The position numbers and the translations under genes were made by a program. The notes under the pieces are model-generated. The model was not told the DNA's origin. It did not search any database and was given only the letters and a program-made list of their open reading frames with translations. Below, piece after piece: positions 10,202-50,118 of a stretch of 51,685 nucleotides of DNA. Position 1 is the first letter of the stretch; every line of letters starts with the position of its first letter. Source of the DNA: Elusimicrobiota bacterium (GTDB lineage: Bacteria > Elusimicrobiota > Elusimicrobia > UBA1565). The DNA lies in the NCBI GenBank assembly GCA_002401485.1, contig NVTF01000061.1, forward strand, positions 1 through 51,685. The letters are read 5' to 3'.

Positions 10202-10297
10202 CGCATGCACCTCATGGCAGCATAGGGGCGAGGAGGAAACAAGTTCCCAGTCGGGGGTGATCCATTTCTTTGCAGGGGGGCGGGCGGCTTCGAGACT

Positions 10298-26004: not shown

Positions 26005-26976
26005 ATGCATGACAACAATCCCGAGGGTTCAATGCTGGCCCATTCGCTTTTTGCGCGGAGCCCCAAAAACCCCATTCTAACGGCGAAATCCTGGCCGTAC
26101 CCGGTCAATGCCGTTTTTAATCCCGCGGCGGTCATCGTCGAGGGCGAAACCGTTTTAATGGTCCGGGTGGAAGACCGTTCCGGCATCTCTCATTTAACCG
26201 TCGCGCGCAGTCAAGACGGGGTTCATGATTGGAAAATAGACTCGAAACCCACCTTTGTTGCTGATCCCCAACGGTACCCGGAAGAAATCTTCGGTGTTGA
26301 AGATCCCCGCCTGACCTGGCTGGAGGAGCGCGGCGAGTGGGCGATGACCTATACCGCCGTTTCCGACCATGGGACCTATGTATCGCTTGCGACCACCAAG
26401 GATTTTAAGTCGTTTGCGCGTAAAGGAACCATCCTTCGGCCGCCGGATAAAGACGCCGCGTTTTTTCCGCGCCGTATCGGCGATCGATGGGCCATTCTGC
26501 ACCGGCCGATTCTTGATCCCAACCAGGACGCCCACATCTGGCTGTCCTATTCCCCTGATCTGAAGCATTGGGGGGAATCCAAGGCTGTTTTGAAGGCGCG
26601 TTCGGGCACCTGGTGGGACGCGGGTAAAATAGGACTGTGCCCGGGACCTATTGAAACGCCGGAAGGTTGGCTCGTGTTGTATCACGGCGTTAGAAAACAC
26701 TGCTCGGGAAGTATTTACCGCTTGGGCCTGGCCCTCCTGGACCTTAAGGATCCAAGCAAGGTTTTGCGCCGCAGTGACGGTTGGGTGATGACGCCCGACG
26801 CTCCTTATGAAGTGACCGGGGATGTAGGCCAGGTGGTGTTCCCATGCGGTTGGGTTCACGACCAGTCCCGCGACGAGGTGAGGATTTATTACGGCGGCGC
26901 CGACACCTGCGTCGCGGTTGCCTCGGTGCCGATGCAGCAGCTTATGGAGTATGTTCGGAGCTGCCCAAACGATTAA
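26005..26976 (+). CDS. GH130 family glycosidase/phosphorylase
   Basis: The 323-residue protein is a complete GH130 enzyme, a five-bladed propeller that cleaves beta-mannosides by phosphorolysis or hydrolysis. Motifs in order are NPILTAKSWPYPVNAVFNPA, MVRVEDRSG, GVEDPRLTWL with Asp100, KDAAFFPRR, GPIETPEGWLVLYHGV, and VTGDVGQVVFPCGW followed by YYGGADTCVAVA. No signal peptide is present, so it is cytoplasmic. It diverges from the sugar operon and resembles the C-terminal domain of the MFS fusion, so both may handle mannose-containing oligosaccharides. Its last 35 bases overlap the tail of the convergent sulfatase gene. Which linkage it acts on is not decided. Confidence 0.92.
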   Translation: MHDNNPEGSMLAHSLFARSPKNPILTAKSWPYPVNAVFNPAAVIVEGETVLMVRVEDRSGISHLTVARSQDGVHDWKIDSKPTFVADPQRYPEEIFGVEDPRLTWLEERGEWAMTYTAVSDHGTYVSLATTKDFKSFARKGTILRPPDKDAAFFPRRIGDRWAILHRPILDPNQDAHIWLSYSPDLKHWGESKAVLKARSGTWWDAGKIGLCPGPIETPEGWLVLYHGVRKHCSGSIYRLGLALLDLKDPSKVLRRSDGWVMTPDAPYEVTGDVGQVVFPCGWVHDQSRDEVRIYYGGADTCVAVASVPMQQLMEYVRSCPND

Positions 26977-28414
26977 GGTGCTGCGTGCGGGGCACGATTT
27001 GCACCGGGTTGGGCGGCTCCCTTTTGTAAGGCAGCCCCGGGGCATGGGGGCGGGAACTTTCGAAGTGATTGAGAAGTTGAAACGAGAGACGCGATATGAT
27101 GTCCGGTCGCTGCTCGGCGAGGTCCTGGGTCTCCAGCGGGTCCTTGAGGAGATCGTAGAGTTCGAAACGGTCCTTGTATTGGTACCAGTGCAGCTTCCAG
27201 CGCTGATCCCGGACCACCCGCTCATCGATGTCGAGATTCTTCCTTCCCGCGGCCAGGCTTCGTTTGGAGCTGGCGAAGGCGTATTCCCGTAAATTCGCGC
27301 TGGGGTTTTCCAGCAGACTGATGAGGCTTTTTCCCTGCAGCTGGAGATGTTCATAGTCGACCCCCGCCGCCTCATACACAGTGGGCGTGAGGTCGATGCG
27401 CTGCACCAGTCCCCTGACGCGCGTGCCCGCGCGATGGGCATAGTCCGGATGGTGCACCATGAGGGGGACGTGCAGAACCGGCTCGTAGAGGCTTTCCGTA
27501 TGGCCGAGCAAGCCCTGCTCATTGAGCAGTTCGCCGTGATCGGCCGTGACGATGATCAAGGTGTTGTCCCAGAGGCCCAAGTTTTTGACTTGGGACAGAA
27601 AGTCGCTGACCTTTCGATCGACGTGATTGAGCGAGGCGTCGTAGCGGGCGATCAACTGCTGCAAGTGCGCGGGTTCCTCCCGGAACTCCTTGAGAAAACT
27701 CCGCAGGGGATCGGCCAGTTCGATCGGCTCCCCGTTATAGGCCCTGAAAAACCGGACATGGGCTGCCATCGTGGAGATGGGTGATCCCTCGCTGTCGGGG
27801 CTGTACCGATTGGGATTGTCCGATTGATACGGCGCGTGTAAATCGTCGACGGTGGTGTAGAGGAAAAAGGGTTTGGCCGGGTCTTTTTTGAGCCAATCCA
27901 AAGCGCGTGGAGAGTAGTCGGCGAATTTCCTTGGTTCATGGGTGCGCGTCGAAAATAGGGCCTCATAAACATCAAATCCGCGATCCAATCCCCAGGCCTG
28001 CAGCGAGAAGATGCCTCCGCTGAAGGCGGCGGTGCGGTAGCCGGCCTCCTTCATCTTCTCAGCCATGGTGGGCACCGTTTTGTCCGGCTTGAGAAATGGG
28101 GAGACGATGTATTGTCCGTGTACTTCCGGAATATGCCCGGTCAGCAGGCTGGCATAGTTGGGCAGGCACCATGAGGACTGCGCCATGGCGTTTTCAAAGA
28201 GCACGTTCTCGTTCGCGAATTTGTCCATGCCGGGAGTTGTGTCGCGGGAGTAGCCGTAGGTCCCGAAGTGGTCGGCGCGGGCGGAACAGATATCGATGAT
28301 AAGCACGTTGAGCGGGCGTTGCTCCTTGCTGGGGTGAGTGGAGGCCGCTAGGCTGGGAAGGGGCTGTCCGGCAGTCCCGGTGAGTGCGGCAACAAGAAGC
28401 AGAGGAATAAACAT
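26942..28414 (-). CDS. Sulfatase-family protein with CxPNY active site
   Basis: This is a 490-residue alkaline-phosphatase-superfamily protein with an N-terminal signal segment. The fold markers are present (LIIDICSARADHFGTYGY, VTADHGELLNEQGLLGH, VPLMVHHPD, RWKLHWYQYKDRFELYDL). The active-site segment reads WCLPNYASLLTG: Cys83 is where formylglycine forms in sulfatases, but the consensus is CxPSR and here Ser and Arg are Asn and Tyr. One metal-ligand Asp of the usual DD pair is also replaced (IDI). It may be a phosphodiesterase, a transferase, or a sulfatase with altered maturation. Its ATG overlaps the TAA of the upstream sulfatase-like gene by one base. Confidence 0.82.
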   Translation of the reverse strand: MFIPLLLVAALTGTAGQPLPSLAASTHPSKEQRPLNVLIIDICSARADHFGTYGYSRDTTPGMDKFANENVLFENAMAQSSWCLPNYASLLTGHIPEVHGQYIVSPFLKPDKTVPTMAEKMKEAGYRTAAFSGGIFSLQAWGLDRGFDVYEALFSTRTHEPRKFADYSPRALDWLKKDPAKPFFLYTTVDDLHAPYQSDNPNRYSPDSEGSPISTMAAHVRFFRAYNGEPIELADPLRSFLKEFREEPAHLQQLIARYDASLNHVDRKVSDFLSQVKNLGLWDNTLIIVTADHGELLNEQGLLGHTESLYEPVLHVPLMVHHPDYAHRAGTRVRGLVQRIDLTPTVYEAAGVDYEHLQLQGKSLISLLENPSANLREYAFASSKRSLAAGRKNLDIDERVVRDQRWKLHWYQYKDRFELYDLLKDPLETQDLAEQRPDIISRLSFQLLNHFESSRPHAPGLPYKREPPNPVQIVPRTQHLNRLGSSEHTP

Positions 28415-29811
28415 TACGGTAAATACCCTAGAAATTTCAGCTGCTCCACCGTTTCCTCCTCAAGGCTCGAAGGCTTGCCGGTGAGTGGAGGGAGGCTCTT
28501 TTTCACGCGAAGGTTCTCCTGTTCCCACTGGGTGAATTGCAATGTGAGCGACTTGATCAGATCCGGTTCCTCTGCGATACGGTTCACCCGCTCCAGCGGA
28601 TCCTTCTTCAAATCGTAGAGTTCATCCGGCCCGCTATTCATTCGACGAATGTATTTCCACCGGCGGGTTCGAAGCACTCTCACTGCATCTCTCTTGTCGT
28701 CGCTATGGGCTGACTCCGCAAAGGCGGTTCCGGCTTGGCTCGCTGCGCCATAGACCAAGGGCAGCAGGCTCTGGCCCTGCACCGGCTGGGGAGGGGTGAT
28801 TGCTAAAAAATCTAAAATGGTGGGCATGATGTCGATGCTTTCTACCACCTGCGCAATTTGCCTTCCGGTGGCTTGGGCCGGGACGCGAAACAAGAGCGGC
28901 ACCCGGAGCACTTCGTCGTAGGGCGCTAGCCAGCCATGCGACAAATTCCCGTGTTCCATGAACTGCTCCCCGTGATCGGCTGTTAGGACAATCAAGGTTT
29001 TGTCCGCCACATCCAGCTCATCGAGCTTATCAAACAATTGCCCAAGCTGCTCGTCTAGATAGGATATGCCGCCGTCATAAAGGGCGATGAGGTGATGGAG
29101 ATCATCCTTGGAGAGCGTCCTCTTTCCGTTGTTGACCGCAGTCACAATCTCGCGTCGCCCATCGATGTCACCGACATAGTCTGGATCCCAGAGTTGATCG
29201 AAGCGTGGTGAAGTTTTGTATGGATCGTGGGCATCAATCGAATGAATATAGAGGAAAAACTTTTGCGCGTGATTTTTCTCAAGCCAGGGCAGGATGGTGC
29301 GATTAATACCCTGCATCGATTTATAGCCATCAACGTATTGGGAGAAACCCTGGCTAAAGCCGAATGCGGAATTTGTGAAGCCTCCGCTCGCGACGCCGGC
29401 GGTGAGATACCCCCGGTCCTGAAGCACTTCGGCCAATGTCAGCCGGGAATTGTCCAGGATCTTGCCGGCGGGCGGGGTATATCCGTCTTCAACCCACTTC
29501 GCGTCATTGGGGAAGTATATCGCGCCATGGACGGACGGATAAAGTGATGTCATGATGGAGGCCAGCGAAGGCAGCGTCCAGGTGGCCTGAGCGAATGCGT
29601 TTGAAAAGATTGCGCCGCTTTTGAAGAAGCGGTCAATATGGGGGGTTGTATTGCGGGCGTAGGAATAGGTGCCCATATGATCCGCCCGCAGGGCATCGTT
29701 GACAATGAGAATAACATTCCATTCGCCGCGCAGGGCTGAGGTCGCCGCGCGACCCGGCGTGAGCGAGAGGCAGAAAATCATCGCCAGCAACGATAATCGG
29801 AAAACTCTCAT
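28414..29811 (-). CDS. Sulfatase-like hydrolase with Thr active site
   Basis: The 465-residue protein belongs to the same superfamily and has a signal peptide ending near PGRAATSA. Typical blocks are VNDALRADHMGTYSY, LTADHGEQFMEHGNLSHG, VPLLFRVP and RWKYIRRMNSGPDELYDL with KKDPLE. The nucleophile position reads WTLPSLASIMTSLYPSVHG, with Thr79 instead of Cys or Ser, so it cannot make formylglycine. Thr is the nucleophile in phosphoethanolamine transferases and lipoteichoic acid synthases, so transfer or hydrolysis of a phosphodiester is as likely as sulfatase activity. It is coupled to the next gene by TAATG and lies 17 bases after the TPR gene, so the three form one operon. Confidence 0.85.
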   Translation of the reverse strand: MRVFRLSLLAMIFCLSLTPGRAATSALRGEWNVILIVNDALRADHMGTYSYARNTTPHIDRFFKSGAIFSNAFAQATWTLPSLASIMTSLYPSVHGAIYFPNDAKWVEDGYTPPAGKILDNSRLTLAEVLQDRGYLTAGVASGGFTNSAFGFSQGFSQYVDGYKSMQGINRTILPWLEKNHAQKFFLYIHSIDAHDPYKTSPRFDQLWDPDYVGDIDGRREIVTAVNNGKRTLSKDDLHHLIALYDGGISYLDEQLGQLFDKLDELDVADKTLIVLTADHGEQFMEHGNLSHGWLAPYDEVLRVPLLFRVPAQATGRQIAQVVESIDIMPTILDFLAITPPQPVQGQSLLPLVYGAASQAGTAFAESAHSDDKRDAVRVLRTRRWKYIRRMNSGPDELYDLKKDPLERVNRIAEEPDLIKSLTLQFTQWEQENLRVKKSLPPLTGKPSSLEEETVEQLKFLGYLP

Positions 29812-29828
29812 GACTCTACTATGTTAAC

Positions 29829-31025
29829 TTAAGGAACCTGCCGAATGGACCTCGGGCCGTCGGAGAGCAGGGTTTGGATCTCAGAATCTCGGCAGGTTTT
29901 CTCGAGGCATTCCCGTGCGATGGCGTGAGAATCGGCTTTGTTCGGCAGGTTTAAGACTTCAAAATAGTCTTTGACCGCGTCTCTTCGATTTCCGATCACA
30001 TCAAAGGCGACGCCTCGATATAAATGGCACAGGGTCTTCCATCCCGCAACCGCAGCGTCCTTTGCCAATGCCCGGGTGAGCCACTCAATTACCAGAGAAA
30101 GAGTTCCAGGTTGGAGGCATTTTTTCGGGGCGAGACTGCAGAGAGTGCTCATGCGTTTGCCCAACAAAATTTCCGGATCTTTTTCAGCGCGCTTAAAGAG
30201 GGATAACGCCTTATCGTGAGAACTCTCCCAGTCGCCCATTTGATCGAGCAGGAGTATTTCAACAAAACGAAAATAGGGGCTATCGGGATAGTCCGCCAAT
30301 ATTTTTTTCAGGACTTCGAGTGCTTCATCCTTTTTATCCTCGTTGAGAAAATAGAAGCTCAATAGGTTGGAGGCGGCCTGGGTTACCACGAATGGATAAC
30401 GGCCTTTATCCATCGCCATATGCAAATGCCGAAGACCTTCTTGCACATTGCCGCGAACGAATATGTAGATCCCGACCTTCAGCATGCCCGGCAACCGCCC
30501 GGCGAGATATTCGAAGACCCCGATTCCTAAATACGCATCGTAGTATTCGGGATCGAGCGTTAGAAGATAATTTTGATGTTTCTTACCTTTTCTCCCGTCA
30601 AAATAGGCTCTGAGCCAACGGCCGTTGGCTAAATTAAATTGGGCACGTATGCCCAGGGTGAGGCCTGAGGCGAAATAGGCGTGGGCTGTTAATTCGGGAT
30701 TCTTTGATTTTATTTGGATTTTTGAAAACTTCAGGGACTTTTTGATGTCTTCTTCGATCCGGGTCTTTAGGGCAGGTCTGCGTTCAAAGAGGCCAGGTTC
30801 CGCTGAGGACCACCACCAAATCGTTCCCAGCTCGAAAAGATAGCCAAGGGGATCCTCGGGATGGCGTTTGATGTAGCCGGCGATGGAGTCGACGGCTTGG
30901 TCGTAGTCCAGATTGTATAGAAAAGCATTGCTTTCTCGGGCGGTGGTGGCGAGGTCGCTTTCGGCTGCTGCCGGGCCGGCAAAGAGTCCGAAGGCGAACA
31001 ATAAGGAGACCATGACCCGAATCAT
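29829..31025 (-). CDS. Secreted TPR-like repeat protein
   Basis: From the ATG at 31025 the protein has 398 residues and begins with a clean signal peptide (VSLLFAFGLFAGPAAA). The body is helical with tetratricopeptide-like repeats: YDQAVDSIAGYIKRHPEDPL, AYLGIGVFEYLAGRLPGM, NVQEGLRHLHMAMDKGRYPF and KDEALEVLKKILADYPDSPY. The GVFEYLAGRLP and EGLRHLHMA pieces recur in a family of uncharacterised bacterial TPR proteins. An in-frame ATG at 31217 would add 64 residues and bury the signal peptide, so I reject it. It leads the operon with the two sulfatase-like genes and diverges from the Pfa-type genes. It is probably a periplasmic scaffold. Confidence 0.8.
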   Translation of the reverse strand: MIRVMVSLLFAFGLFAGPAAAESDLATTARESNAFLYNLDYDQAVDSIAGYIKRHPEDPLGYLFELGTIWWWSSAEPGLFERRPALKTRIEEDIKKSLKFSKIQIKSKNPELTAHAYFASGLTLGIRAQFNLANGRWLRAYFDGRKGKKHQNYLLTLDPEYYDAYLGIGVFEYLAGRLPGMLKVGIYIFVRGNVQEGLRHLHMAMDKGRYPFVVTQAASNLLSFYFLNEDKKDEALEVLKKILADYPDSPYFRFVEILLLDQMGDWESSHDKALSLFKRAEKDPEILLGKRMSTLCSLAPKKCLQPGTLSLVIEWLTRALAKDAAVAGWKTLCHLYRGVAFDVIGNRRDAVKDYFEVLNLPNKADSHAIARECLEKTCRDSEIQTLLSDGPRSIRQVP

Positions 31026-31106
31026 CAGCTGCACGCTATCAAAAATTAGAAAATTGACAAAGGAATTATGCCGCATTTGACCGCTCATTATCCGCCGGAA
31101 AATGGC

Positions 31107-31112
31107 TATAAT
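31107..31112 (+). promoter_or_regulatory. Candidate -10 element for the Pfa-type operon
   Basis: TATAAT lies 43 bases before the ATG at 31156, in the 130-base gap between divergent genes. The -35 region at the usual spacing (TCATTA) is poor. Two better -35-like hexamers, TTGACA at 31054 and TTGACC near 31077, sit too far upstream to pair with it. Confidence 0.4.
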
Positions 31113-31155
31113 ACACACGTTGCACATCCCCCCCTTAAGAGCCCCCAGAGACTGA

Positions 31156-34100
31156 ATGCCAAAGCAATCCCTTTCTAAAACCCGTGAACCCATTGCCGTA
31201 GTTGGAATCAGCGCCATTTATCCTGGGTCCCTTGATAAGAAGGGTTTTTGGAAGGATATCGCCGCCGGCAAGGATATGATGCGGGAAGTCCCCAGTTCTC
31301 ATTGGCTCATTGAGGATTATTACGATCCGGACCCAAAAGCCCCGGAAAAGACCTATTGCAAACGCGGCGCATTCCTGAGCCCCGTTGATTTTGATGCCTT
31401 GGGCTTCGGTATCCCGCCGAAATTGCTGCCTGCAACCGATACCACCCAATTGCTCGCGCTGCTCGCGGCCAAACGCTGTCTCGATGAAGCCACCATGGGG
31501 AAATTCGATGAGGCGGACAAGGATCGTATCAGCATTATTTTAGGCGTTGTCTCACCGCTGTCGTTGGCCGGAAATATGTGGAGCAAGCTGCAGAAGCCGG
31601 TTTGGCTCAAGGCCCTGCGCGATGCCAAGGTCCCTGAAGATGAAGCTCAGGATATCTGCAAACGAATCGCGAATGAATATCCGGAGTGGGTGGAAAGCAC
31701 CTTCCCGGGTTTGCTCGGAAATGTTGTCGCCGGAAGGGTCGCCAACCGTTTGGATCTCGGCGGGACCAACTGCATCACCGATGCCGCCTGCGCGAGTTCC
31801 TTCTCCGCGCTCACCATGGCTGTCGACCAGCTTTATCTCGGCGACGCCGATATGGTGGTGACCGGCGGCATCGACGCGATGAACGACATTTTGATGTACA
31901 TGTGCTTCAGCAAAACTCCCGCTATTTCTGCCAGCGGCGACTGCCGGCCCTTCTCGGACAAAGGCGACGGCACGATGCTTGGCGAAGGGGCGGGTCTCTT
32001 CGCGCTGAAGCGGCTCGATGACGCCGAACGCGACGGTAATACTGTTTACGCGGTTCTCAAAGGAGTCGGCAGTTCTTCCGACGGGAAATCGAAGAGCGTA
32101 TACGCGCCGGTTGCAGCGGGTCAGGCGAAAGCCGTGCGCCGGGCCTATGAAAAGGCTGCGATCGACCCTTCCACGATTGAACTCGTCGAAGCGCACGGGA
32201 CCGGCACGCTGGCCGGCGACGTCGCGGAGCTCGGCGGCCTCACCTCGGTTTACGAAAACGGGATCCGCAAGGACAAGCAGTGGTGTGCGCTCGGCAGCGT
32301 GAAGTCGCAGATCGGTCACACCAAGGCGGCGGCGGGTGCTGCGGGATTATTTAAGATGGTTATGGCGCTTCATCATAAAACGCTCCCCCCGATTATCAAG
32401 GTGGACCGTCCCCACCCGAAGTTCGACATGCCCAATACTCCGTTTTATCTCAACACCGAGACACGGCCGTGGGTCCGTAATGAGGATCACCCGCGCCGCG
32501 CCGCGGTTAGCGCCTTTGGTTTTGGCGGCGCCAACTACCATATCGCGCTTGAAGAATACACCGGAGCCAACCGCCCGGTTAAGGTGCGCAGTTTCCCGAC
32601 GGAACTCGTGTTGTTGTGCGGCCCGGATCGACCGGCGCTTCTGAAGGCGTGCTCCTCCTTGCGCGCAGAGTTGTCGGAATTGCCGGATCTGCTCGCCTTT
32701 ATCGCCAGCGAGTCTCAGAAACGATTTAATGCGTCCGCGCATGAGCGTTTAGCCGTCACTGCAAAAGATGAAAACGATCTTGTTCAGAAGCTTCAATCCG
32801 TCGAGAAAATTTTGGCGGACGGCGGTTCCAATTTCGCACCCGGTATTCATTACGCCTCCGGAGCCTCTTCGAAAGGCAAGGTCGCTTTCCTCTTTAGCGG
32901 ACAGGGATCTCAGTATGTCGGCATGGGCAAGGATCTTCTGATGGCCTTCGATTCCGCGCGAGAGCCTGTCGATTTCGCCGCCGGGATGCGTTTTGGCGAC
33001 ACCAAGGGCCTGCACGGTAAAATTTATCCGACGCCTGTTTTCACCGATGAAGATCGCTCCAAACAAAATGCGGAATTAACCCAGACGGAATGGTCCCAGC
33101 CTGCGATTGGACTGATTAGCCTGTCTCAATTGGCCCTGCTCGATCGTCTCGGCATCAAGCCGGATTTCTTGGGCGGGCATAGTTTCGGGGAGCTCACGGC
33201 GTTGTACGCTTCGGGCGCCTACGATCGTGAAACGTTCTTGGCAATCGCGCGCAAACGCGGTGAGTTGATGGCGGAGTCCTCCAAGAAGTCCGGCGGCAAA
33301 GGAGCGATGCTGGCTGTCAGCGCTTCGGTGAGTGATGTCGAGACGGTGCTTAAGAAATTGAATCTTAATCTCGTCGCGGCGAATCAGAACAGCCCCAAAC
33401 AAACGGTGCTCTCCGGGGATGCTGCTGAAATTGACCGTGCGCAGGAGGTTCTCGCCTCGGAACACATGACAGCAAAACGCCTGCCTGTTTCTACGGCATT
33501 TCATTCTTCGATGATGAATGGAGCGCGAGACCCGTTCCTCGCCTTCCTCGACAAAGCGAAAATTTCCGCGGTCAATACGCCCGTTTACGCCAACACCACC
33601 GCGAAACCCTACCCAAAAAGCGCAAAGGCTCTGCGCAGTCACTTGGCGGACCAAATAATTTCGCCGGTTCTCTTCGCCTCGCAAGTCCAGGCGATGTATG
33701 AAGCCGGGGTCCGTACCTTCGTGGAGGTTGGGCCTGGCCGCGTTTTGACCTCGCTGCTTCGGGACAATCTCGGAGAGAAGCCGCATCTCGCTGTTTCTCT
33801 AGACAAAAAGAAGTCTCATGGTGTCTCGGCCTTATGGGATAGTTTAGGGGCGCTCGCCGTTGCGGGCATCCCGCTGGATTTTGCCGCCCTCTGCCAAGAG
33901 TATGGAACTCCGGCGGACCCTAGAAAAATTAAGAAATTCCCGTTGACTGTAAAAGTCAGCGGGGTCAATCACGGCCGTCCGTACCCGCCAGAGGGGGGAG
34001 CCGCCGCGTTGCCCAAGCCGCAACCCCCGCGAGCTGCACAAGCAGCCCCCGCAGTCGTTCAACCCAATCCGGAGGCAGAAATGTCCAATTCAAATACCGA

Positions 34101-35037
34101 TCCCCGTTATTCCGCATGGCTCGAAGCGTTCAAGGAAATGGAACGCACCACGTCGGAGGCCCACACCGCCTATCAAAAGTCGATGGCCGACAGTCATATG
34201 CAGTTTTTGCAGATGGCCCAAGCCTCCTTGGCCAACATGACCAGTTTGATCAGCGGACAACCTGTCGCTCCTGCTCCGATCGTCCCGATCGCCGCGCCTG
34301 CGCCTGTTGTCCCGGTTGCTGCTCCGGTCCCGATCGCCGCGCCTGCACCCGTTGTTCCTGTTGCCGCCCCAGTCCCGATCGCCGCGCCTGCCCCCGTTGT
34401 TCCCGTTGCCGCTCCCGCTCCGGTCGTCTCCGCTCCGGCCTCGGTCTCCGGTGGTTTGGACAACCTTGAAGCCGCCCTCATTGAGGTTGTGGCCGACAAG
34501 ACCGGCTATCCGACGGAAGTTCTCAACCCTGAGATGAACTACGAGTCCGACCTTGGTGTTGACTCCATCAAACGCGTCGAGATTCTCGCCGCCTTAAAAG
34601 AAAAAGTTCCCAATCTTCCCGACGTGCCCGCAGAGGAGTTGGCCGCGCTGCAAACGCTCGGTCAGACGGTTGCCTACATCAATGAACGTGCGGGCATCAA
34701 CGCCCCAGCGGCAGCACCCGTTGCGGCCGCGCCGTCCTCGGAAGGCTCTCTCAGTATTCAAGACGCACTGATTAAAGTGGTTGCCGATAAAACCGGTTAT
34801 CCGGTGGAAGTGCTCAATCCCGAGATGAACTATGAGTCGGATCTCGGCGTTGATTCCATCAAACGCGTCGAAATTCTCGCTGCCCTCAAAGAGGAAGTTC
34901 CGAATCTTCCGGAGGTCCCGGCCGAGGAATTGGCCGCCCTTCAGACGCTCGGTGCGACCGTTGCGTATATTGAAAACCGGGGAAACGGGGCGGTGGCGAC
35001 CGCGTCAACGCCAGCGACCAAAAAAAAAACACACTGA
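31156..35037 (+). CDS. pfaA: PfaA-like synthase, KS-AT-ACP-ACP part
   Basis: This 1293-residue part of a multidomain lipid synthase has a ketosynthase (about 9-469) with Cys212 in DAACASSF, His347 in EAHGTGT and His388 in IGHTKAAAG. An acyltransferase (about 576-875) follows, with Ser676 in GHSFGE. Then come a helical linker, a Pro/Ala-rich repeat, and two tandem ACPs whose phosphopantetheine serines are 1137 and 1234 (LGVDSIKRVEIL). Tandem LGVDSIKRVEIL-type ACPs are the hallmark of Pfa polyunsaturated fatty acid synthases. The frame stops (TGA at 35035) right after an A10 tract, and the ketoreductase expected next is in another frame. The product probably elongates an acyl chain on its ACPs from malonyl units. 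Confidence 0.9.
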   Translation: MPKQSLSKTREPIAVVGISAIYPGSLDKKGFWKDIAAGKDMMREVPSSHWLIEDYYDPDPKAPEKTYCKRGAFLSPVDFDALGFGIPPKLLPATDTTQLLALLAAKRCLDEATMGKFDEADKDRISIILGVVSPLSLAGNMWSKLQKPVWLKALRDAKVPEDEAQDICKRIANEYPEWVESTFPGLLGNVVAGRVANRLDLGGTNCITDAACASSFSALTMAVDQLYLGDADMVVTGGIDAMNDILMYMCFSKTPAISASGDCRPFSDKGDGTMLGEGAGLFALKRLDDAERDGNTVYAVLKGVGSSSDGKSKSVYAPVAAGQAKAVRRAYEKAAIDPSTIELVEAHGTGTLAGDVAELGGLTSVYENGIRKDKQWCALGSVKSQIGHTKAAAGAAGLFKMVMALHHKTLPPIIKVDRPHPKFDMPNTPFYLNTETRPWVRNEDHPRRAAVSAFGFGGANYHIALEEYTGANRPVKVRSFPTELVLLCGPDRPALLKACSSLRAELSELPDLLAFIASESQKRFNASAHERLAVTAKDENDLVQKLQSVEKILADGGSNFAPGIHYASGASSKGKVAFLFSGQGSQYVGMGKDLLMAFDSAREPVDFAAGMRFGDTKGLHGKIYPTPVFTDEDRSKQNAELTQTEWSQPAIGLISLSQLALLDRLGIKPDFLGGHSFGELTALYASGAYDRETFLAIARKRGELMAESSKKSGGKGAMLAVSASVSDVETVLKKLNLNLVAANQNSPKQTVLSGDAAEIDRAQEVLASEHMTAKRLPVSTAFHSSMMNGARDPFLAFLDKAKISAVNTPVYANTTAKPYPKSAKALRSHLADQIISPVLFASQVQAMYEAGVRTFVEVGPGRVLTSLLRDNLGEKPHLAVSLDKKKSHGVSALWDSLGALAVAGIPLDFAALCQEYGTPADPRKIKKFPLTVKVSGVNHGRPYPPEGGAAALPKPQPPRAAQAAPAVVQPNPEAEMSNSNTDPRYSAWLEAFKEMERTTSEAHTAYQKSMADSHMQFLQMAQASLANMTSLISGQPVAPAPIVPIAAPAPVVPVAAPVPIAAPAPVVPVAAPVPIAAPAPVVPVAAPAPVVSAPASVSGGLDNLEAALIEVVADKTGYPTEVLNPEMNYESDLGVDSIKRVEILAALKEKVPNLPDVPAEELAALQTLGQTVAYINERAGINAPAAAPVAAAPSSEGSLSIQDALIKVVADKTGYPVEVLNPEMNYESDLGVDSIKRVEILAALKEEVPNLPEVPAEELAALQTLGATVAYIENRGNGAVATASTPATKKKTH
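34282..34416 (+). repeat. Three 45-bp units encoding a VPIAAPAPVVPVAAP linker
   Basis: Three adjacent in-frame 45-base units begin at 34282, 34327 and 34372. They differ by a few mostly silent changes. They code for the flexible Pro/Ala linker before the first ACP of the Pfa-type protein and could expand or shrink by slippage or recombination without breaking the frame. Confidence 0.9.
35020..35029 (+). other. A10 tract at the ACP-KR junction, candidate slippage site
   Basis: Ten consecutive A residues follow the second ACP. In the upstream frame they are read as Lys codons and a TGA comes 8 residues after the tract begins. With one A fewer (or two more) the frame runs straight into the ketoreductase region and stays open to 37279. 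Slippage by RNA polymerase or ribosome, a real mutation, or an assembly error could each explain it. Confidence 0.6.
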
Positions 35038-37279
35038 AGTCAGCCTAGGCCGCTGGGTTCTCGGAAACTCTGAGGTCGCCTCTACCGGCATCGCGCTCCA
35101 GAATATCCTGGATGCGCGCAGCATTGCGATCACCGATGACGGTCGTGGAGTGGCTCAAGAGTTGGCCAAGGCTCTCGGTTCGCATGCGCGTGTGGTCTCT
35201 GAGACCCCGGCCGATGCCGATGCCGTTATTTTTCTAGGCGGACTGAAAAAATTTAAAGACGGTGAGGCGGCGGCGGCGGTGAATCGCGAAGCCTTTCTCG
35301 CCGCAAAGTCCTTTTCGTCTAATCTCCCGGAAGATGGCGGGGTGTTTGTGACGGTACAGGATACTGGTGGAGCTTTTGGTTTAACCTCCGCGCCTGTCGG
35401 CGTCTCGGCCTGGGCTTCAGGTCTGCCCGGCTTGATTAAAACCGCCTATCGCGAATGGCCTCAGACCGCGGTAAAAGCCATCGATATCGAGATGGGAAAA
35501 CGTTCCGCGAAGGCTGTCGCGGCCGCACTCCTGGAGGAGCTTCATTTCGGCGGTTCTGCGCTTGAGGTGGGCCTTGCCCAGGATGGAACACGCCGCGAGC
35601 CCGTTCTCGAAATGCAACAACATCGCGCGGACGGCAAAAAAAGCGCGGGCTTGGCTCCGGGATCCGTCGTTCTGGTTTCCGGCGGCGCCCGCGGGGTTAC
35701 CGCGAGCACGCTGATTGAGTGGAGCCGGGAACTGAAGCTGCGTTTTGTGCTGTTAGGGCGAACCTCCCAAAAGAAGGAGCCCCTTGAAACGCAGGGAGCT
35801 GCGACAGACGCTGAGATTAAAAAGGCGCTTTTGCAGAAAGCCTTGGCCGCCGGTGAGAAGGTCACTCCGAAAGATCTGATGGCAGCCTCCAAGAAAATTC
35901 TTGCAGAACGTGAGATCGCTGCAACCCTTGCGGCGATTGAGGCGAATGGTTCCGATGCCGCGTATTACCCGGTCGATGTTCAGGACGCGGTGTCGGTGAG
36001 CCACGCGCTTGAAACCGTACGCAAAAAATGGGGTCCGGTCGCCGCGATTGTGCACGGTGCGGGTACCTTGGAAGATAAACTCATCGCGGACAAAACGCCG
36101 GAGATGTTTGATTTTGTTTTCAACACGAAGGTTTCAGGCCTGCGCGCTTTATTAACCGCGACCGAGTCGGATCCCATTGAGGCCATTGTGCTGTTTTCTT
36201 CCGTTGCGGGACGATATGGAAACGTCGGTCAGTCCGATTATGCCATGGCGAATGAAGTTCTCAATAAGCTGGCGCGTGAAGAAGCGAAACGGCGAAAAAG
36301 CTGCCTCGTGCGGTCCCTGAATTGGGGCCCGTGGGACGGCGGCATGGTGACGCCCGCACTGCGTGGGCATTTCGAAAAACTCGGCGTCGCCCTGATCGGG
36401 CTCGATGCCGGCGCACGTTTCATGGTCGAAGAATTGAATGAGCGGAGTTTGGATGATATCGAGGTTGTGATCGGCGGCAATACGATCGAACCCGATATGT
36501 CGGCCCGCGAGGGTCAGGCCGAGCGGGTCTACGATATTATTGTGGACCCGGCGAAATACGGGATGTTGGAGAGCCATAAAATTCGCGGGAAGGTCGTCGT
36601 CCCCTTTGTGTTGGCCCTCGATTGGTTTCAGCGCATAGCCGGCCCTGCGGGGTTGAGCGATATTCAGATGTTGAAGGGAATTTCGGGCGACTGCAAACGC
36701 CTCCGCCTTATTGTTCGCGGGGAAACGCTGCAGCTCCAATCGGTCGACGGAACACCGCATTACCGGGCGGTCATGGGACCGGCTGAGACCGATAAGCGTA
36801 TTGCAGCGCCGACGGGTCTCCAGCCCTCCGGCATCAAGGACGCCTATAAAGGCAAGCTGCTTTTTCATGGACCGGCATTTCATGTGATTGCCTCCGAACT
36901 TCAAATTTCCGAAGACGCACTTTCCGCGGAGCTAAAGGCACCCAAACCGGCACATTGGAAGCACTCGAGAGTTGTGACGCCTGCCGCCTTCCTGGATGGC
37001 GGACTGCAAATGGGAATTTTGCTGGGCGCGCATGTGATTGGAAAACGCGTGCTTCCGACCCGGGCCGGTCAGTTCATCCTGTACACGCGGGAGATTCCGG
37101 AACGTGTGACGTGTTCGCTGCGCGTGAACAAGAAAAATGATTCGGGTCTGGTTTATGATGTTTTGTTGTCCTCCAACGACGGAACTCCCGTTGCGGCCGC
37201 CTTGGCTGTGGAGGCCACCGCAGTTCCCAACGAACCGTCGGTGTCCCTGCTCCCACGGGGGAAGGTAGGCGCAAAATGA
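35030..37279 (+). CDS. pfaA: PfaA-like synthase, KR-DH part (frameshifted continuation)
   Basis: This is the C-terminal 749 residues of the PfaA-like protein in a different frame. A pseudo-structural KR region (WASGLPGLIKTAYREWPQT, EMGKRSAKAVAAALLEELHF) leads into the catalytic ketoreductase with the nucleotide loop VSGGARGVTAS and the SDR active site FSSVAGRYGNVGQSDYAMAN (Ser, Tyr at 36239 and Asn). A dehydratase-like domain follows, with HKIRGKVVVP (His at 36575) matching HxxxGxxxxP and FLDGGLQ as partner motif. No plausible start with a ribosome binding site exists at its beginning; an ATG at 34832 lies inside the ACP2 coding sequence. It is best read as part of one 2040-residue protein. 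Its stop overlaps the next start by four bases. Confidence 0.85.
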   Translation, partial: HTEVSLGRWVLGNSEVASTGIALQNILDARSIAITDDGRGVAQELAKALGSHARVVSETPADADAVIFLGGLKKFKDGEAAAAVNREAFLAAKSFSSNLPEDGGVFVTVQDTGGAFGLTSAPVGVSAWASGLPGLIKTAYREWPQTAVKAIDIEMGKRSAKAVAAALLEELHFGGSALEVGLAQDGTRREPVLEMQQHRADGKKSAGLAPGSVVLVSGGARGVTASTLIEWSRELKLRFVLLGRTSQKKEPLETQGAATDAEIKKALLQKALAAGEKVTPKDLMAASKKILAEREIAATLAAIEANGSDAAYYPVDVQDAVSVSHALETVRKKWGPVAAIVHGAGTLEDKLIADKTPEMFDFVFNTKVSGLRALLTATESDPIEAIVLFSSVAGRYGNVGQSDYAMANEVLNKLAREEAKRRKSCLVRSLNWGPWDGGMVTPALRGHFEKLGVALIGLDAGARFMVEELNERSLDDIEVVIGGNTIEPDMSAREGQAERVYDIIVDPAKYGMLESHKIRGKVVVPFVLALDWFQRIAGPAGLSDIQMLKGISGDCKRLRLIVRGETLQLQSVDGTPHYRAVMGPAETDKRIAAPTGLQPSGIKDAYKGKLLFHGPAFHVIASELQISEDALSAELKAPKPAHWKHSRVVTPAAFLDGGLQMGILLGAHVIGKRVLPTRAGQFILYTREIPERVTCSLRVNKKNDSGLVYDVLLSSNDGTPVAAALAVEATAVPNEPSVSLLPRGKVGAK

Positions 37280-45707: not shown

Positions 45708-46628
45708 ATGGCAGCACGAACCATGCCCGTTTGGCAGTCGATTCCGCTGTGGGTGGGGTTAACCGTGCTGGGTTTTCTCTTTTCTTTTGTGCCGCGCCGT
45801 CTCGAAATGTGGGTTGGGCCGTGGTTCGGTCGATTGGCACTCTGTGTCGCGCCAAAACGACGCCGCACCGCCGAAGAAAACATTCGCCGGTGTTATCCGG
45901 AAAAAACCGCCGAGGAGCAGGCGGACTTGGTTCGCAGAAATTGTGAACATTGGGGACTGATCGGCCTCGAGTTCATGCATCTCTTTTCTCCGGTTCCGGG
46001 TCATTTCGCCCGCTACATCAAAAAGAATTCGGTCATGCATGGATTTGAAAACTGGGAAAAGGCGCATGCCAAAGGAAAGGGCACGATCATCGTGGGCTGC
46101 CACGCGGGGAACTGGGAAATCGCCGCCGGGGCCGGTTGTTTGGCGGGCATGACCTTCATGATAGTCACGCGGCGTTTAACGCCGGAGTGGCTGTTGAAGA
46201 AAATTGAATCCTCCCGGCTGCAGGCCGGCTTAAAAGCCGTCTATCAACCGCGCACGGTCCCGACGATCATGAAAAATCTGCGCAAGGGGGAATGTGTGGG
46301 TTTTGTTATCGACCAATACGCGGGCCCGCCCATGGGCGTCAAAGCGCGTTTCTTCGGCTATAATGTTTACACCCTCGCTGCGGTCGGGCCGCTTGCGCAG
46401 CGAACGGGAGCCGCCATCGTCCCGACCTATAATTACCGGGACGAGAACGGGGTCTTTCAGGTTTTTTTGGAGCCGGAACTCGACTTTGGAGAGGCCGCCG
46501 GGGATGCGGCGCAGACGGCGCAGGTGTTGGCAAACATGGTGGAGAAGCACGTGCGCGATAACGTGACGCAATGGACCTGGGGTCACCGCCGGTTTAAGAA
46601 CGTCGATTTTTCTGATAGGAAAGCCTAA
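45708..46628 (+). CDS. LpxL/HtrB-like lysophospholipid acyltransferase
   Basis: The 306-residue protein belongs to the lipid A lauroyl/myristoyl acyltransferase family. It has one N-terminal membrane anchor (IPLWVGLTVLGFLFSFVPRR), AEENIRRCYPEKT, and the HxxxxE catalytic pair in GCHAGNWEIA (His132, Glu137). Later come GFVIDQYAGPPMGV and FFGYNVYTLAAVGPLAQRTG, also typical. It lies five bases after the Pfa-type gene and is surely co-transcribed. LpxL enzymes take acyl chains from ACP to a lipid acceptor at the inner face of the membrane, so it is a good candidate to transfer the chain made by the synthase. The acceptor need not be lipid A. Confidence 0.9.
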   Translation: MAARTMPVWQSIPLWVGLTVLGFLFSFVPRRLEMWVGPWFGRLALCVAPKRRRTAEENIRRCYPEKTAEEQADLVRRNCEHWGLIGLEFMHLFSPVPGHFARYIKKNSVMHGFENWEKAHAKGKGTIIVGCHAGNWEIAAGAGCLAGMTFMIVTRRLTPEWLLKKIESSRLQAGLKAVYQPRTVPTIMKNLRKGECVGFVIDQYAGPPMGVKARFFGYNVYTLAAVGPLAQRTGAAIVPTYNYRDENGVFQVFLEPELDFGEAAGDAAQTAQVLANMVEKHVRDNVTQWTWGHRRFKNVDFSDRKA

Positions 46629-46645
46629 CTTTTACTATTCTTTTC

Positions 46646-48277
46646 ATGATGAAGCCTTGGTCGTTATTACTCGTCGTATTTTTCGCGCTGCTCGGGGGCT
46701 GCCGTGAGCTGACGCTTGAGGAACAAGCGGAACTCAACATCCCGCCCCAGAACCGCGTCCCCCCCAAATACCTGCGAACCGAAGCTGGCAAACCGTCTAG
46801 CGTTGAGTTGAGTACCACCGATCCGGTGATCCTCAATGCCTTGTTCGAGCTGCTCGAAAAGTCGGATAAAATCGGCGCCAAGGTTTCCAAGCTTGAGGGA
46901 AGCGCCTTTGAAGAGCTGCTGAGTGTCGGGTCCCCCAACGCCTATTTGCTCCGCAATCGTTATCTCAATCCCGGCGTCATGTTGGCGCTCGCCCTCGCTG
47001 AGGATCCGGACCCCGCGCTGCGTTCGCGTCTGGTTGAATACGCCCGATGGGAGCGGTCGATGGATGTCCGTTCGACAGCGCTGACAGCTCTCGCCCGCAT
47101 GCAGAATTTAGAGGATGAACGTTCCCTGCACGAGGCGATGTCTCATCTCAATCCTATTGTTCGATTCGGCGGAATGGAAGCCCTAGGCAATTGGGGAAAG
47201 CCGGAGAAAGCGATTCCGCTGCTCAAATTAGCCGCTGAAAACGACCGCCAACGCGTCCTTCGGGTTTATGCCGCGGGCATGATGGCGCGCCTGGGAAATT
47301 CGGAGGGCCGGGATAAACTCCGTGGCTTCCTCAATGATACCGATTGGGTTGTACATGCCATGGCGGCGCGCTACCTCGGGGATTACGGTGAGGCGGGAGA
47401 TTACGATGTCTTTTTGAGGCGTCTAGACGCTCAGAACACCAACGATTTTGTTTTGGCTGAATATGCGGTCGCTTCGTTGAAATTATTTAAGAAAAAATCC
47501 GCCCCGAAACCGGAACCCCAAAGTGACTCTGACTTCGGGTTGGGTTTTATTTTAGCCCCAATTACGGTGACCGCTCCGCGAGTCGATGCCCCTTTTGGCA
47601 TTAGTTCCAAAATAAACAATGTGCTTCTTCGTTTGCTGGAGTCGCGCAGCGAAGTGCGGCCCGATGACCTGGGCGTGATCAACGACGCCTCGCGCGTATT
47701 CGCCAATTTAACGACGCTCACCGGCCATATGATGCGATTAAGGTATACGGAATTAGGCTTCCTGCTGACGGAAGGTCTTGCGGGGGTCAAGGACTTCTCC
47801 CTTCAGAGTGAACTTCAGACGGTCGCAAGAACCGCGAAAAATCCCCAAATGCGCGCGGCCGCCTTGGTCTCGCTGGGATACACAAAGGAAGAACAATTCG
47901 TGAGTTTGTTCAGGGAAACGATTAACGATCAGAATTTAACGGTGCGTCTCGGGGCGTTTGAGGCCTTGGTGGTCTCCCAGTCGCAGCAAGCATTATTCAT
48001 CGTTGGAGACAAAGCCCAAAATGATCAGTCCTTGTCGGTGCGCGTGATGGCGGCGGCCGCTTACTGGAAAATGGGCAATCCGAGCGGCCGCAATATGCTG
48101 CTGGAATTCGCTGAAAATGAAGATTGGTATGTGCGGGCACATGCGGTCTCGTATTTGGGTGAATTAGGTGACGGTCAGGATTATCGCTACCTATTAGACC
48201 GGCTGAGCCGGGATACGGACGATATTGTGCGTTCAGAGCTGGTCCTTGCTCTGATGCGCCTGAGGGAGAAAAAATGA
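46646..48277 (+). CDS. HEAT-repeat lipoprotein
   Basis: This is a 543-residue protein with a lipoprotein signal ending LLGGC, so it should be lipid-anchored outside the inner membrane. The mature part is built of HEAT/PBS-lyase-like helical repeats: DPALRSRLVEYARWERSMDV, NPIVRFGGMEALGNWGKPEK, WVVHAMAARYLGDYGEAGDY, and near the end WYVRAHAVSYLGELGDGQDY with its following repeat. Such repeats mediate protein contacts and no enzyme motif is seen. It overlaps exbB by four bases (ATGA), so it is probably made with and works beside the ExbB/ExbD/TonB complex. ATG at 46646 and 46649 are both possible starts. Confidence 0.85.
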   Translation: MMKPWSLLLVVFFALLGGCRELTLEEQAELNIPPQNRVPPKYLRTEAGKPSSVELSTTDPVILNALFELLEKSDKIGAKVSKLEGSAFEELLSVGSPNAYLLRNRYLNPGVMLALALAEDPDPALRSRLVEYARWERSMDVRSTALTALARMQNLEDERSLHEAMSHLNPIVRFGGMEALGNWGKPEKAIPLLKLAAENDRQRVLRVYAAGMMARLGNSEGRDKLRGFLNDTDWVVHAMAARYLGDYGEAGDYDVFLRRLDAQNTNDFVLAEYAVASLKLFKKKSAPKPEPQSDSDFGLGFILAPITVTAPRVDAPFGISSKINNVLLRLLESRSEVRPDDLGVINDASRVFANLTTLTGHMMRLRYTELGFLLTEGLAGVKDFSLQSELQTVARTAKNPQMRAAALVSLGYTKEEQFVSLFRETINDQNLTVRLGAFEALVVSQSQQALFIVGDKAQNDQSLSVRVMAAAAYWKMGNPSGRNMLLEFAENEDWYVRAHAVSYLGELGDGQDYRYLLDRLSRDTDDIVRSELVLALMRLREKK

Positions 48278-48882
48278 CCCTACAAACCTTGAAGGTTTTT
48301 GCTCTCTCCGGCGGAGATTGGGTCATTTGGGCGCTGCTGCTTGCCTCGGTGGTTGCGGTTGCGGTGATTGTTGAACGGGCCTTGGTCCTGCGCCGTGAAA
48401 TGGAATCCCTCAATAATTTGAAACAGGCGCTGCAAACGCCGGTCGCTGACGGGGACCACGCAAAAATTGCAGCGGCGCTAAAAAAGTCTGAGGGCGCCTC
48501 GAGCCGAATTCTCGCATCGGCGGTTTCTTCCGGAGGCCGGGCGGCGGTCGAAGACCGAATTGTCGCCTCCGCACTCGATGAAAAACGCTTCCTCGAGACC
48601 CGGTTGCTGATTTTGGGAACCCTCGGCAACAACGCTCCGTTTGTGGGACTCTTTGGAACGGTTCTCGGCGTCATTCGAGCCTTTCACGATTTAGCGGCAC
48701 ATGCGGGTGCGGGTCCGGAAGTGGTGATGCGGGGACTCTCGGAAGCGCTCATCGCGACCGCAGTCGGCCTGTTTGTTGCCATCCCGTGCGTCATCGCGTA
48801 TAACTATTTGCAGAAGCAGGTGCAGGATCTTCTCTCCAGCGTTGAGTCGATGTCCCGTTTGATTCTCGCCGCTGGGAAATAA
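48274..48882 (+). CDS. exbB: ExbB/TolQ-family proton channel protein
   Basis: The 202-residue membrane protein has three hydrophobic helices in the ExbB/TolQ/MotA arrangement: WALLLASVVAVAVIVERALVL near the N-terminus, then APFVGLFGTVLGVIRAF, and ALIATAVGLFVAIPCVIAYN. The GLFGTVxG and LIATAxGLxVAIP motifs are the family signature. With ExbD it forms the inner-membrane motor that uses proton flow to energise TonB. ATGA overlap with the HEAT lipoprotein and a 17-base gap to exbD make this one operon. Confidence 0.94.
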   Translation: MTLQTLKVFALSGGDWVIWALLLASVVAVAVIVERALVLRREMESLNNLKQALQTPVADGDHAKIAAALKKSEGASSRILASAVSSGGRAAVEDRIVASALDEKRFLETRLLILGTLGNNAPFVGLFGTVLGVIRAFHDLAAHAGAGPEVVMRGLSEALIATAVGLFVAIPCVIAYNYLQKQVQDLLSSVESMSRLILAAGK

Positions 48883-48899
48883 CCGCCGCACTCCGCGCC

Positions 48900-49304
48900 A
48901 TGAAGAGCTTGAGCGATCACTCCGGCCCTATTACCGACATCAACGTCACCCCGTTGGTGGACATTATTCTTGTGGTGCTGATCATCTTTATGGCGACCGC
49001 TCCGTTGATCCACCGACGGGAAATCCGCGTGGATGTGCCCAAGGCGAAACACCAATCTCAAGTCGAGCAGAAAGCGCTCACCATTTCTTTTGACAAAGCG
49101 CGCACGCTGCGGTTTCGCGGATCGATTGTCGGGCGTCAAGACCTCACGCGTGCGCTGAGTACGCTGCTAACAAATACTCCGGAGGCCCGCGTCATCCTTT
49201 CCGCGGATGAAGTCCTTCCCTACGGAGACATTGTGGGTGTACTGGATCTCATTCGGGGCGCCGGTCTTAAACGGATCAGTCTCGAGGTCCGCAGTGGCTC
49301 TTAG
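48900..49304 (+). CDS. exbD: ExbD/TolR-family biopolymer transport protein
   Basis: The 134-residue protein has the short cytoplasmic start ITDINVTPLVDIILVVLIIF, with the membrane Asp that takes part in proton transfer (PLVDI). The periplasmic domain ends with the pattern VILSADEVLPYGDIVGVLDL and IRGAGLKRIS, usual for ExbD. It is the partner of the upstream ExbB. Its last 11 bases overlap the likely GTG start of tonB. Confidence 0.94.
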   Translation: MKSLSDHSGPITDINVTPLVDIILVVLIIFMATAPLIHRREIRVDVPKAKHQSQVEQKALTISFDKARTLRFRGSIVGRQDLTRALSTLLTNTPEARVILSADEVLPYGDIVGVLDLIRGAGLKRISLEVRSGS

Positions 49305-50118
49305 TCTTTCACAGGATAATCACGGGGATCTATTCCATCGTTGTCTTGTCGGATCGGCGGTCTTTCATATCGCGCTGCTGCTGATCGGAGGAATGGCGTT
49401 GACCTTTGAGGCGCTCAATCCCTTGGATGGACTTGTCATTGATTTGTCCCTGCCGTTGCGGGATTTTGATTCTAAGGGAGCGGGGCCCAAGGAACTCTCT
49501 CCGACCGCTCCGCCGTTGGCCGTTCCCATTCCGGTAGAACCGGCGCCGCCCGTTGTGGAGCCCGCCCCGGAGCCGGTGGTTGTCCCAGAGCCGGAGCCCG
49601 AACCGATTCCGGTTCCAGCAGCGGAGCCGGAATCGGTACCTGTCCCTGTGGAAGAAATAACGATTGCTCCACCGGTTCAAGAGAAGGCTACACCGGTTCC
49701 TCCCGCGGTGGTTCCGCCGATTGCGGCCTCGCCGCAAGGAGTCGCGGGAGGGGAAGGCACGACAGCGGGCTCGCTTGTGACCGGACCGGAAGGTGGAGGC
49801 GGGACCGGTCCTGCGGGACGGACGATGAACCCGGATGTAATGCCCAAACTTCTCAATCGCGACGAGGTCGTACGGAATTTACGAAGATTTTATCCCGAAG
49901 CCCAACGTTTGGCCGGGCGTGAAGCCAAGGTTATTGTGAAGATTTTTATTGGCATTACCGGGAAGGTCGACAAGGTCGATGTGATGCAAAGCGGGGGGGC
50001 CTCCTTTGACGCAGGAGCCATGGCCGTCGCACAACGCATGCGATTTTCTCCCGCCATGATGGGGGGGCGCCCGGTGGCGGTCGCACTGCCTCAGCTCATT
50101 CTTTTCCGCCTCAATTAA
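49294..50118 (+). CDS. tonB: TonB-family energy transducer
   Basis: From the GTG at 49294, which has GAGG six bases upstream, the protein has 274 residues. One N-terminal membrane helix (VGSAVFHIALLLIGGMALTF) is followed by a long Pro/Glu/Val-rich periplasmic spacer with repeated PEPEPEPIPVP-like runs. The C-terminal TonB domain (about 195-274) reads LAGREAKVIVKIFIGITGKV and ASFDAGAMAVAQRMRFSPAM. It should carry energy from ExbB/ExbD to outer-membrane transporters. An ATG at 49207 in frame would put 29 polar residues before the helix and overlap exbD by 98 bases, so I do not prefer it. No TonB-dependent receptor is in the window. Confidence 0.92.
   Translation: MALSLSQDNHGDLFHRCLVGSAVFHIALLLIGGMALTFEALNPLDGLVIDLSLPLRDFDSKGAGPKELSPTAPPLAVPIPVEPAPPVVEPAPEPVVVPEPEPEPIPVPAAEPESVPVPVEEITIAPPVQEKATPVPPAVVPPIAASPQGVAGGEGTTAGSLVTGPEGGGGTGPAGRTMNPDVMPKLLNRDEVVRNLRRFYPEAQRLAGREAKVIVKIFIGITGKVDKVDVMQSGGASFDAGAMAVAQRMRFSPAMMGGRPVAVALPQLILFRLN

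Follow-up and report, generated by a model that had tools for sequence, protein, structure and literature searches.

Locus and reading-frame break

We analysed a 51,685-nucleotide (nt) stretch of an Elusimicrobiota genome (GCA_002401485.1, contig NVTF01000061.1; hereafter, the window), in which a Pfa-type synthase gene is broken in frame at a run of ten A (A10). The upstream open reading frame (ORF) encodes ketosynthase (KS), acyltransferase (AT) and two acyl carrier protein (ACP) domains, with matches to ketoacyl-synt, Ketoacyl-synt_C, Acyl_transf_1 and two PP-binding stretches, and the downstream frame encodes ketoreductase (KR) and dehydratase (DH) domains (Table 1). The order KS-AT-ACP(n)-KR(-DH), followed by a PfaC-like protein with KS, chain length factor (CLF) and FabA regions, identifies a Pfa-type PfaA subunit. 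The start of the PfaC-like gene overlaps the KR-DH stop in ATGA.

The junction codons of the ACP frame are GCG ACC AAA AAA AAA ACA CAC TGA, the protein ending in ATKKKTH, and the KR-DH frame continues without a stop across the tract as far as 37279. The original prediction held that an A10 tract between ACP2 and KR splits the synthase and that removal of one A would join the two frames in the PfaA order. The tract and the stop lie as proposed, coordinate arithmetic gives a join of 2040 residues (1291 up to and including the Lys run, and 749 after it), and the domain order is that of PfaA, though with KR-DH in a different frame. The further claim that KR-DH has no usable start of its own is nearly but not strictly correct. 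The KR frame is open upstream as far as an ATG at 34832, out of frame within ACP2, and past the tract its first start codons are the GTG at 35150 and a TTG at 35162. Neither of these two has a Shine-Dalgarno (SD)-like sequence in the preceding 20 nt, and both lie downstream of the conserved LGRW... sequence that opens the KR region and would be lost.

No other run of ten or more A or T occurs in the 2.9 Mb assembly, which has 11 further A9/T9 runs, several of them within uninterrupted ORFs. Since the only A10 of the genome sits at the break, tract and break are causally tied, a coincidence that is compatible with an error, a mutation or a used slippage site alike.

Table 1 Features of the synthase gene and the genes next to it in the window (aa, amino acids).
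Feature	Position	Strand	Basis or remark
Upstream frame, PfaA/Pfa2-like KS-AT-ACP-ACP, 1293 aa	31156..35037	+	ORF and domain matches
ACP1, PP-binding, residues 1107-1175	34474..34680	+	domain match
ACP2, limits approximate, GVDSIKR motif at residue 1231	34762..34965	+	
A10 tract, frame junction	35020-35029	+	in-frame A_AAA_AAA
TGA stop of the ACP frame, directly past A10	35035..35037	+	
Downstream frame, KR-DH, 749 aa; +1/-2 shift from the ACP frame	35030..37279	+	
First KR-frame start past the tract, GTG	35150..35152	+	beyond the conserved start of the KR region
KR domain, PF08659	35870..36337	+	Pfam match
DH domain, PF14765 PS-DH	36806..37237	+	Pfam match
PfaC/Pfa3-like KS-CLF-AT-FabA(x3) with C-terminal acyltransferase-like region, 2808 aa	37276..45702	+	CLF and C-terminal acyltransferase called from sequence, not Pfam matches
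Lipid A acyltransferase-like protein, PF03279, next cluster gene	45708..46628	+	

The ACP/KR junction in split and fused relatives

The ACP/KR junction was followed in ~130 relatives. Most database relatives encode KS-AT-ACP(n)-KR-DH as one ORF of ~1900-2400 aa. In 17 non-duplicate relatives ACP and KR are in separate frames, always related by -1 and always broken at this same junction. An in-frame X_XXY_YYZ heptamer is present in all 17, its first base no more than 18 nt ahead of the end of the ACP stop. The frequency of such heptamers in fused genes is 0.0035 per codon, which gives 2% for any 6-codon stretch. The heptamer is A_AAA_AAG followed by TAG in five Paenibacillaceae (pattern G(G/A)A AAA AAG TAG), A_AAA_AAC with a run of nine A in Paenibacillus qinlingensis, C_CCT_TTG in three Acidimicrobiales (CCT TTG RCC, then TAA, TAG or TGA), G_GGA_AAG or A_AAA_AAG in four Myxococcota, A_AAA_AAC in Pelagicoccus, G_GGA_AAA in Actinomadura and G_GGA_AAG in Persicobacter psychrovividus, and the tract is A10 in Mucilaginibacter. 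Besides those of the Paenibacillaceae and Acidimicrobiales, recurring cassettes are CTG GGA AAG with TGA or TAA in two Myxococcota and AAA AAG TAA in two relatives.

Related species have cassettes in common despite diverged synonymous sites and stop codons, and the site is conserved in four clades, each with at least two species. The recurrence of these breaks in several species rules out sequencing error for them; the five singletons (L047, L058, L080, L086 and L215), each alone, could be such errors. The KR frames are under purifying selection in Paenibacillaceae, Acidimicrobiales and one Myxococcota pair, with nonsynonymous divergence (dN) well below synonymous divergence (dS) wherever dS was computable, and in Paenibacillaceae the segment from the break to the first ATG varies mostly at third codon positions of the KR frame. 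The breaks in L029, L030 and L059 were excluded as gaps or errors (no heptamer at the stop, or runs of N). Cohnella faecalis (L067) has a second frame break within KR-DH (~10234-10510) beside the conserved -1 junction; it is probably an assembly error, and the first junction alone was used.

A mirror-image layout was found in ~10 further relatives, where one continuous ORF has the heptamer at the same place and a stop in the -1 frame 0-2 codons on. These belong to Myxococcota, Persicobacter, Acidimicrobiales and Verrucomicrobia. By alignment, the fused Myxococcota have a near-invariant CTG GGA AA(G/A) followed by CATAA, CGTAA, CCTGA or TCTGA, so that a -1 slip terminates within two codons, and their split sisters differ from them by a net one-base indel directly at that site. 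The fused gene of Persicobacter JZB09 reads GGGAAAG CTTAA, and at one locus each of Acidimicrobiales, Verrucomicrobia and Myxococcota C_CCT_TTT is followed by GA, making the -1 codon TGA. On Persicobacter plasmids, two closely related synthases (L214 and L215) are fused and split, respectively, by a net one base after the same GGGAAAG, and both retain the hairpin. A -1 stop within two codons follows 13/32 linker heptamers of fused genes (with L104 and L203, probably one genome, counted twice) vs 76/624 heptamers at other places in these genes (Fisher p 9e-5). The quick stop is missing at the other 19 of the 32, so not all linker heptamers are cassettes.

Elements known to stimulate frameshifting were scored at 27 cassettes. 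An SD-like sequence (rule from PMC4066793; position 6-17 nt upstream of the heptamer) precedes 22 of them, against 4.9 expected. Stems start ~6 nt 3' of the heptamer (combined p 2e-12 vs positions in the same genes); related sequences are non-independent, and the p-values thus overstate the evidence somewhat. When 75 nt counted from the heptamer end were folded and compared with shuffles, z was -7.1 in L193, -4.8 in L203 and L206, -4.2 in L195, -3.8 in L205, -3.5 in L214 and L188, -3.3 in L145 and -2.3 to -2.6 in L081 and L053. L061 has a perfect 9-bp stem, yet the z of its minimum free energy (MFE) is -0.33 vs GC-rich shuffles. Between L205 and L206, a compensatory G-C to A-U change at the stem base was noted by eye, though L205 folds differently over the 75 nt. 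No convincing hairpin was found in Paenibacillaceae, where the case consists of heptamer, SD and adjacent stop. Stimulators are missing in L047, L086 and L071. The last of these, which has heptamer and -1 stop but neither SD nor hairpin, was rejected as a convincing cassette and kept among the 27 scored sites. By parsimony, cassette presence changed at least 11 times on a KR tree of modest backbone support.

Going by these sequence features, a real frameshift cassette is very probably present at the ACP/KR junction in this family. The junction would then be a recurrent programmed frameshift site of Pfa-type synthases, and each such gene would encode two proteins, KS-AT-ACP(n) as the short form and KS-AT-ACP(n)-KR-DH as the long one. 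Where the gene is split, the 0 frame would halt just past the heptamer and a -1 ribosomal slip would produce the long form; some fused genes would make the long form in the 0 frame and the short one when a -1 slip leads to the stop close by. That the same two products would result whichever of them is in the 0 frame argues for selection on the two-product output as such, and both are presumably functional proteins. The original prediction that slippage sets the ratio of truncated to complete synthase is therefore strongly supported for the family, by 17 split and ~10 fused relatives, and not shown for the A10 of the window.

Could KR-DH instead be a separate gene, translated by reinitiation or from an internal start (translational coupling)? 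'Split pfaA' types D (Psychroflexus) and H have been described as two genes (PMC3098273), and in L074 a GTG overlaps the ACP stop and has an SD upstream. KR genes that stand apart and have start codons of their own had been named beforehand as the observation that would count against slippage. Apart from L074, they are generally not what the relatives have: most KR frames of split relatives lack a plausible start near the junction, and no KR-frame start was found near it in L053, L145 or L086. In the window the GTG at 35150, the first KR-frame start past the tract, lies beyond where conservation of the KR region begins and has no SD-like sequence. Coupling also fails to explain the fused genes with the same heptamer, SD, hairpin and -1 stop, and we consider it very improbable for the window.

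The A10 tract of the window and its setting

The window shares the junction position of the family and has a slip-prone tract there, a run of at least nine A or T that lies in a frame conflict and is rare in the genome. We put the probability that this A10 is a used slippage site at about 0.5. This reading is favoured because the genome's sole A10 is at the break, KR-DH is intact and otherwise startless, and the cluster genes that follow have open frames. The window would be a homopolymer version at the same spot, where RNA polymerase, or with lower probability the ribosome, would shift register on A10; some product would link KR-DH to the ACPs and the remainder would terminate at the TGA. Judged by the features of the tssM1 gene discussed below, transcriptional slippage is the likeliest route if the tract is used. 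Programmed -1 ribosomal frameshifting was rejected for the window, as the -1 frame past the run also stops early and misses KR.

Several observations weigh against a used slippage site. The relatives' cassettes have all the sequence-level features of -1 frameshifting that were tested, which the window does not share in full: its register is +1 or -2 vs -1 in all clean relatives, and neither an SD-like element (duplex -0.2 kcal/mol) nor a downstream hairpin (z -0.15) was found. The source is one metagenome-assembled genome (78% complete, 191 contigs). No close orthologue of the synthase was found in the genus, family or order or among 147 relatives; best matches in the genus, family and order are ~40% identical and fused where upstream context suffices, and the closest database synthases are ~43-50% identical. 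A second Pfa-type synthase of the same genome (C50:17478-19193) is a fused single ORF. This paralogue has at least three ACPs in the same frame as KR, and no slippery heptamer was seen by eye in its linker.

The break may alternatively be a length error of sequencing or assembly, or a strain polymorphism, with a true or common tract one base shorter and an ORF of 2040 aa; an indel of this kind was the main rival named with the original prediction. The single ORFs of most relatives and of the paralogue agree with this, homopolymers are where such errors occur, and A9 runs are found in other intact ORFs of the genome. A gene with nine A would moreover follow the logic of the fused cassettes, with a slippery A_AAA_AAA and a -1 slip that hits TGA after two codons. 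On the other side, the tract is the sole A run of ten or more in the assembly, which gives no sign of widespread over-lengthening of A runs, and, given the homologous breaks in 17 relatives, a break at this junction is not necessarily an error. We regard a length error as a serious, if rather unlikely, explanation.

The missing SD-like sequence and hairpin, the unusual register and the second, fused synthase on C50 would also fit a recent pseudogene, in which a one-base expansion of the A run inactivated KR-DH and rescue by slippage stays below a useful level. We consider this improbable, as both KR-DH (749 aa) and the PfaC-like gene (2808 aa) are open with recognisable domains, and poly-A cassettes of 9-11 A frameshift at tens of percent in E. 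coli (PMC3711429), so that an A10 would hardly be fully silent.

We tentatively propose a wider scheme, which is nearly as likely as not. At least five phyla (Bacillota, Actinomycetota, Myxococcota, Verrucomicrobiota and Bacteroidota) may set the ratio of a reducing, KR-DH-bearing to a non-reducing KS-AT-ACP subunit by dnaX-like frameshifting at the ACP/KR junction. The cassette would be kept while the 0 frame flips, and poly-A transcriptional slippage would have replaced it in some lineages, including the window.

ACP1 and ACP2 of the window are near-identical as protein (194/270 nt in the part compared). With 4-6 ACPs in canonical PfaA, the two found here possibly reflect a repeat that was collapsed during assembly. 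A divergent TPR-like gene (29829-31217) and the KS ORF overlap at their starts by 62 nt (31156-31217), and one of the two probably begins further in. Two adjacent sulfatases (PF00884) lie upstream of the cluster on the minus strand (26942-29811). On the 3' side of the synthase (45708-50118) are genes for lipid A acyltransferase-like, HEAT-repeat, MotA/TolQ/ExbB and TonB_C proteins, which possibly points to the outer membrane as the lipid's destination. A PfaD-like enoyl reductase and a PfaE phosphopantetheinyl transferase (PPTase) were not among the neighbours scanned, which were only some of the ORFs on a contig ending at 51685, and may be located elsewhere in the incomplete genome.

Comparison with known frameshifting systems

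Most known cases of programmed frameshifting in bacteria come from insertion sequence (IS) elements, dnaX and prfB. We found no report in the open-access literature searched of frameshifting in polyketide, polyunsaturated fatty acid (PUFA) or fatty-acid megasynthases, nor was it seen mentioned in the papers on Pfa or secondary lipid synthases that describe splits. If the junction is used as proposed, product programming of secondary lipid synthases would hinge on a translational ratio switch, annotation would have mis-split or pseudogenised such genes, and codon-optimised or 'fused' heterologous versions would yield the wrong subunit ratio. The cassette-bearing isolates Paenibacillus curdlanolyticus YK9, Cohnella faecalis and Lujinxingia vulgaris, with A_AAA_AAG in P. 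curdlanolyticus and, in a fused gene, G_GGA_AAA in L. vulgaris, make this reading directly testable.

The domain content of the window, KS-AT-ACP(n)-KR-DH with a PfaC-like KS-CLF-DH protein, is like that of the Pfa and secondary lipid synthases (Shulse and Allen types, and the hybrids of PUFA synthase, polyketide synthase and nonribosomal peptide synthetase). The proposed mechanism in the relatives is that of dnaX, both layouts included, and as an explanation for split pfaA it is new to the open-access literature searched. Like E. coli dnaX (tau/gamma, A_AAA_AAG), the relatives have a heptamer, an upstream SD-like sequence, a downstream stem-loop, an immediate stop, and predicted short and long products. 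One dnaX layout, that of E. coli, is fused with a -1 stop, the other is split and has a poly-A run, in most cases of 10 A, and poly-A cassettes in E. coli reach a frameshift efficiency of 40% with 9 A and 63% with 11 A (PMC3711429). Unlike dnaX, the gene here is a multidomain synthase of PUFA or secondary lipids with the site between ACP and KR, the relatives use several heptamers (A_AAA_AAG/C, G_GGA_AAG/A and C_CCT_TTG/T), and the window has the A run alone.

Runs of A9/T9 or longer also yield two products in IS elements (PMC1088944), which in this respect resemble the window, although its gene is biosynthetic rather than mobile. The closest precedent is tssM1 of Citrobacter rodentium, in which transcriptional slippage at A11 was demonstrated to give full-length and truncated proteins (PMC4256274). 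It is an unrelated gene with one more A in its run, and the slippage demonstrated there is only predicted for the window; as in the window, a long A run lies shortly 5' of a premature stop with no SD or structure nearby.

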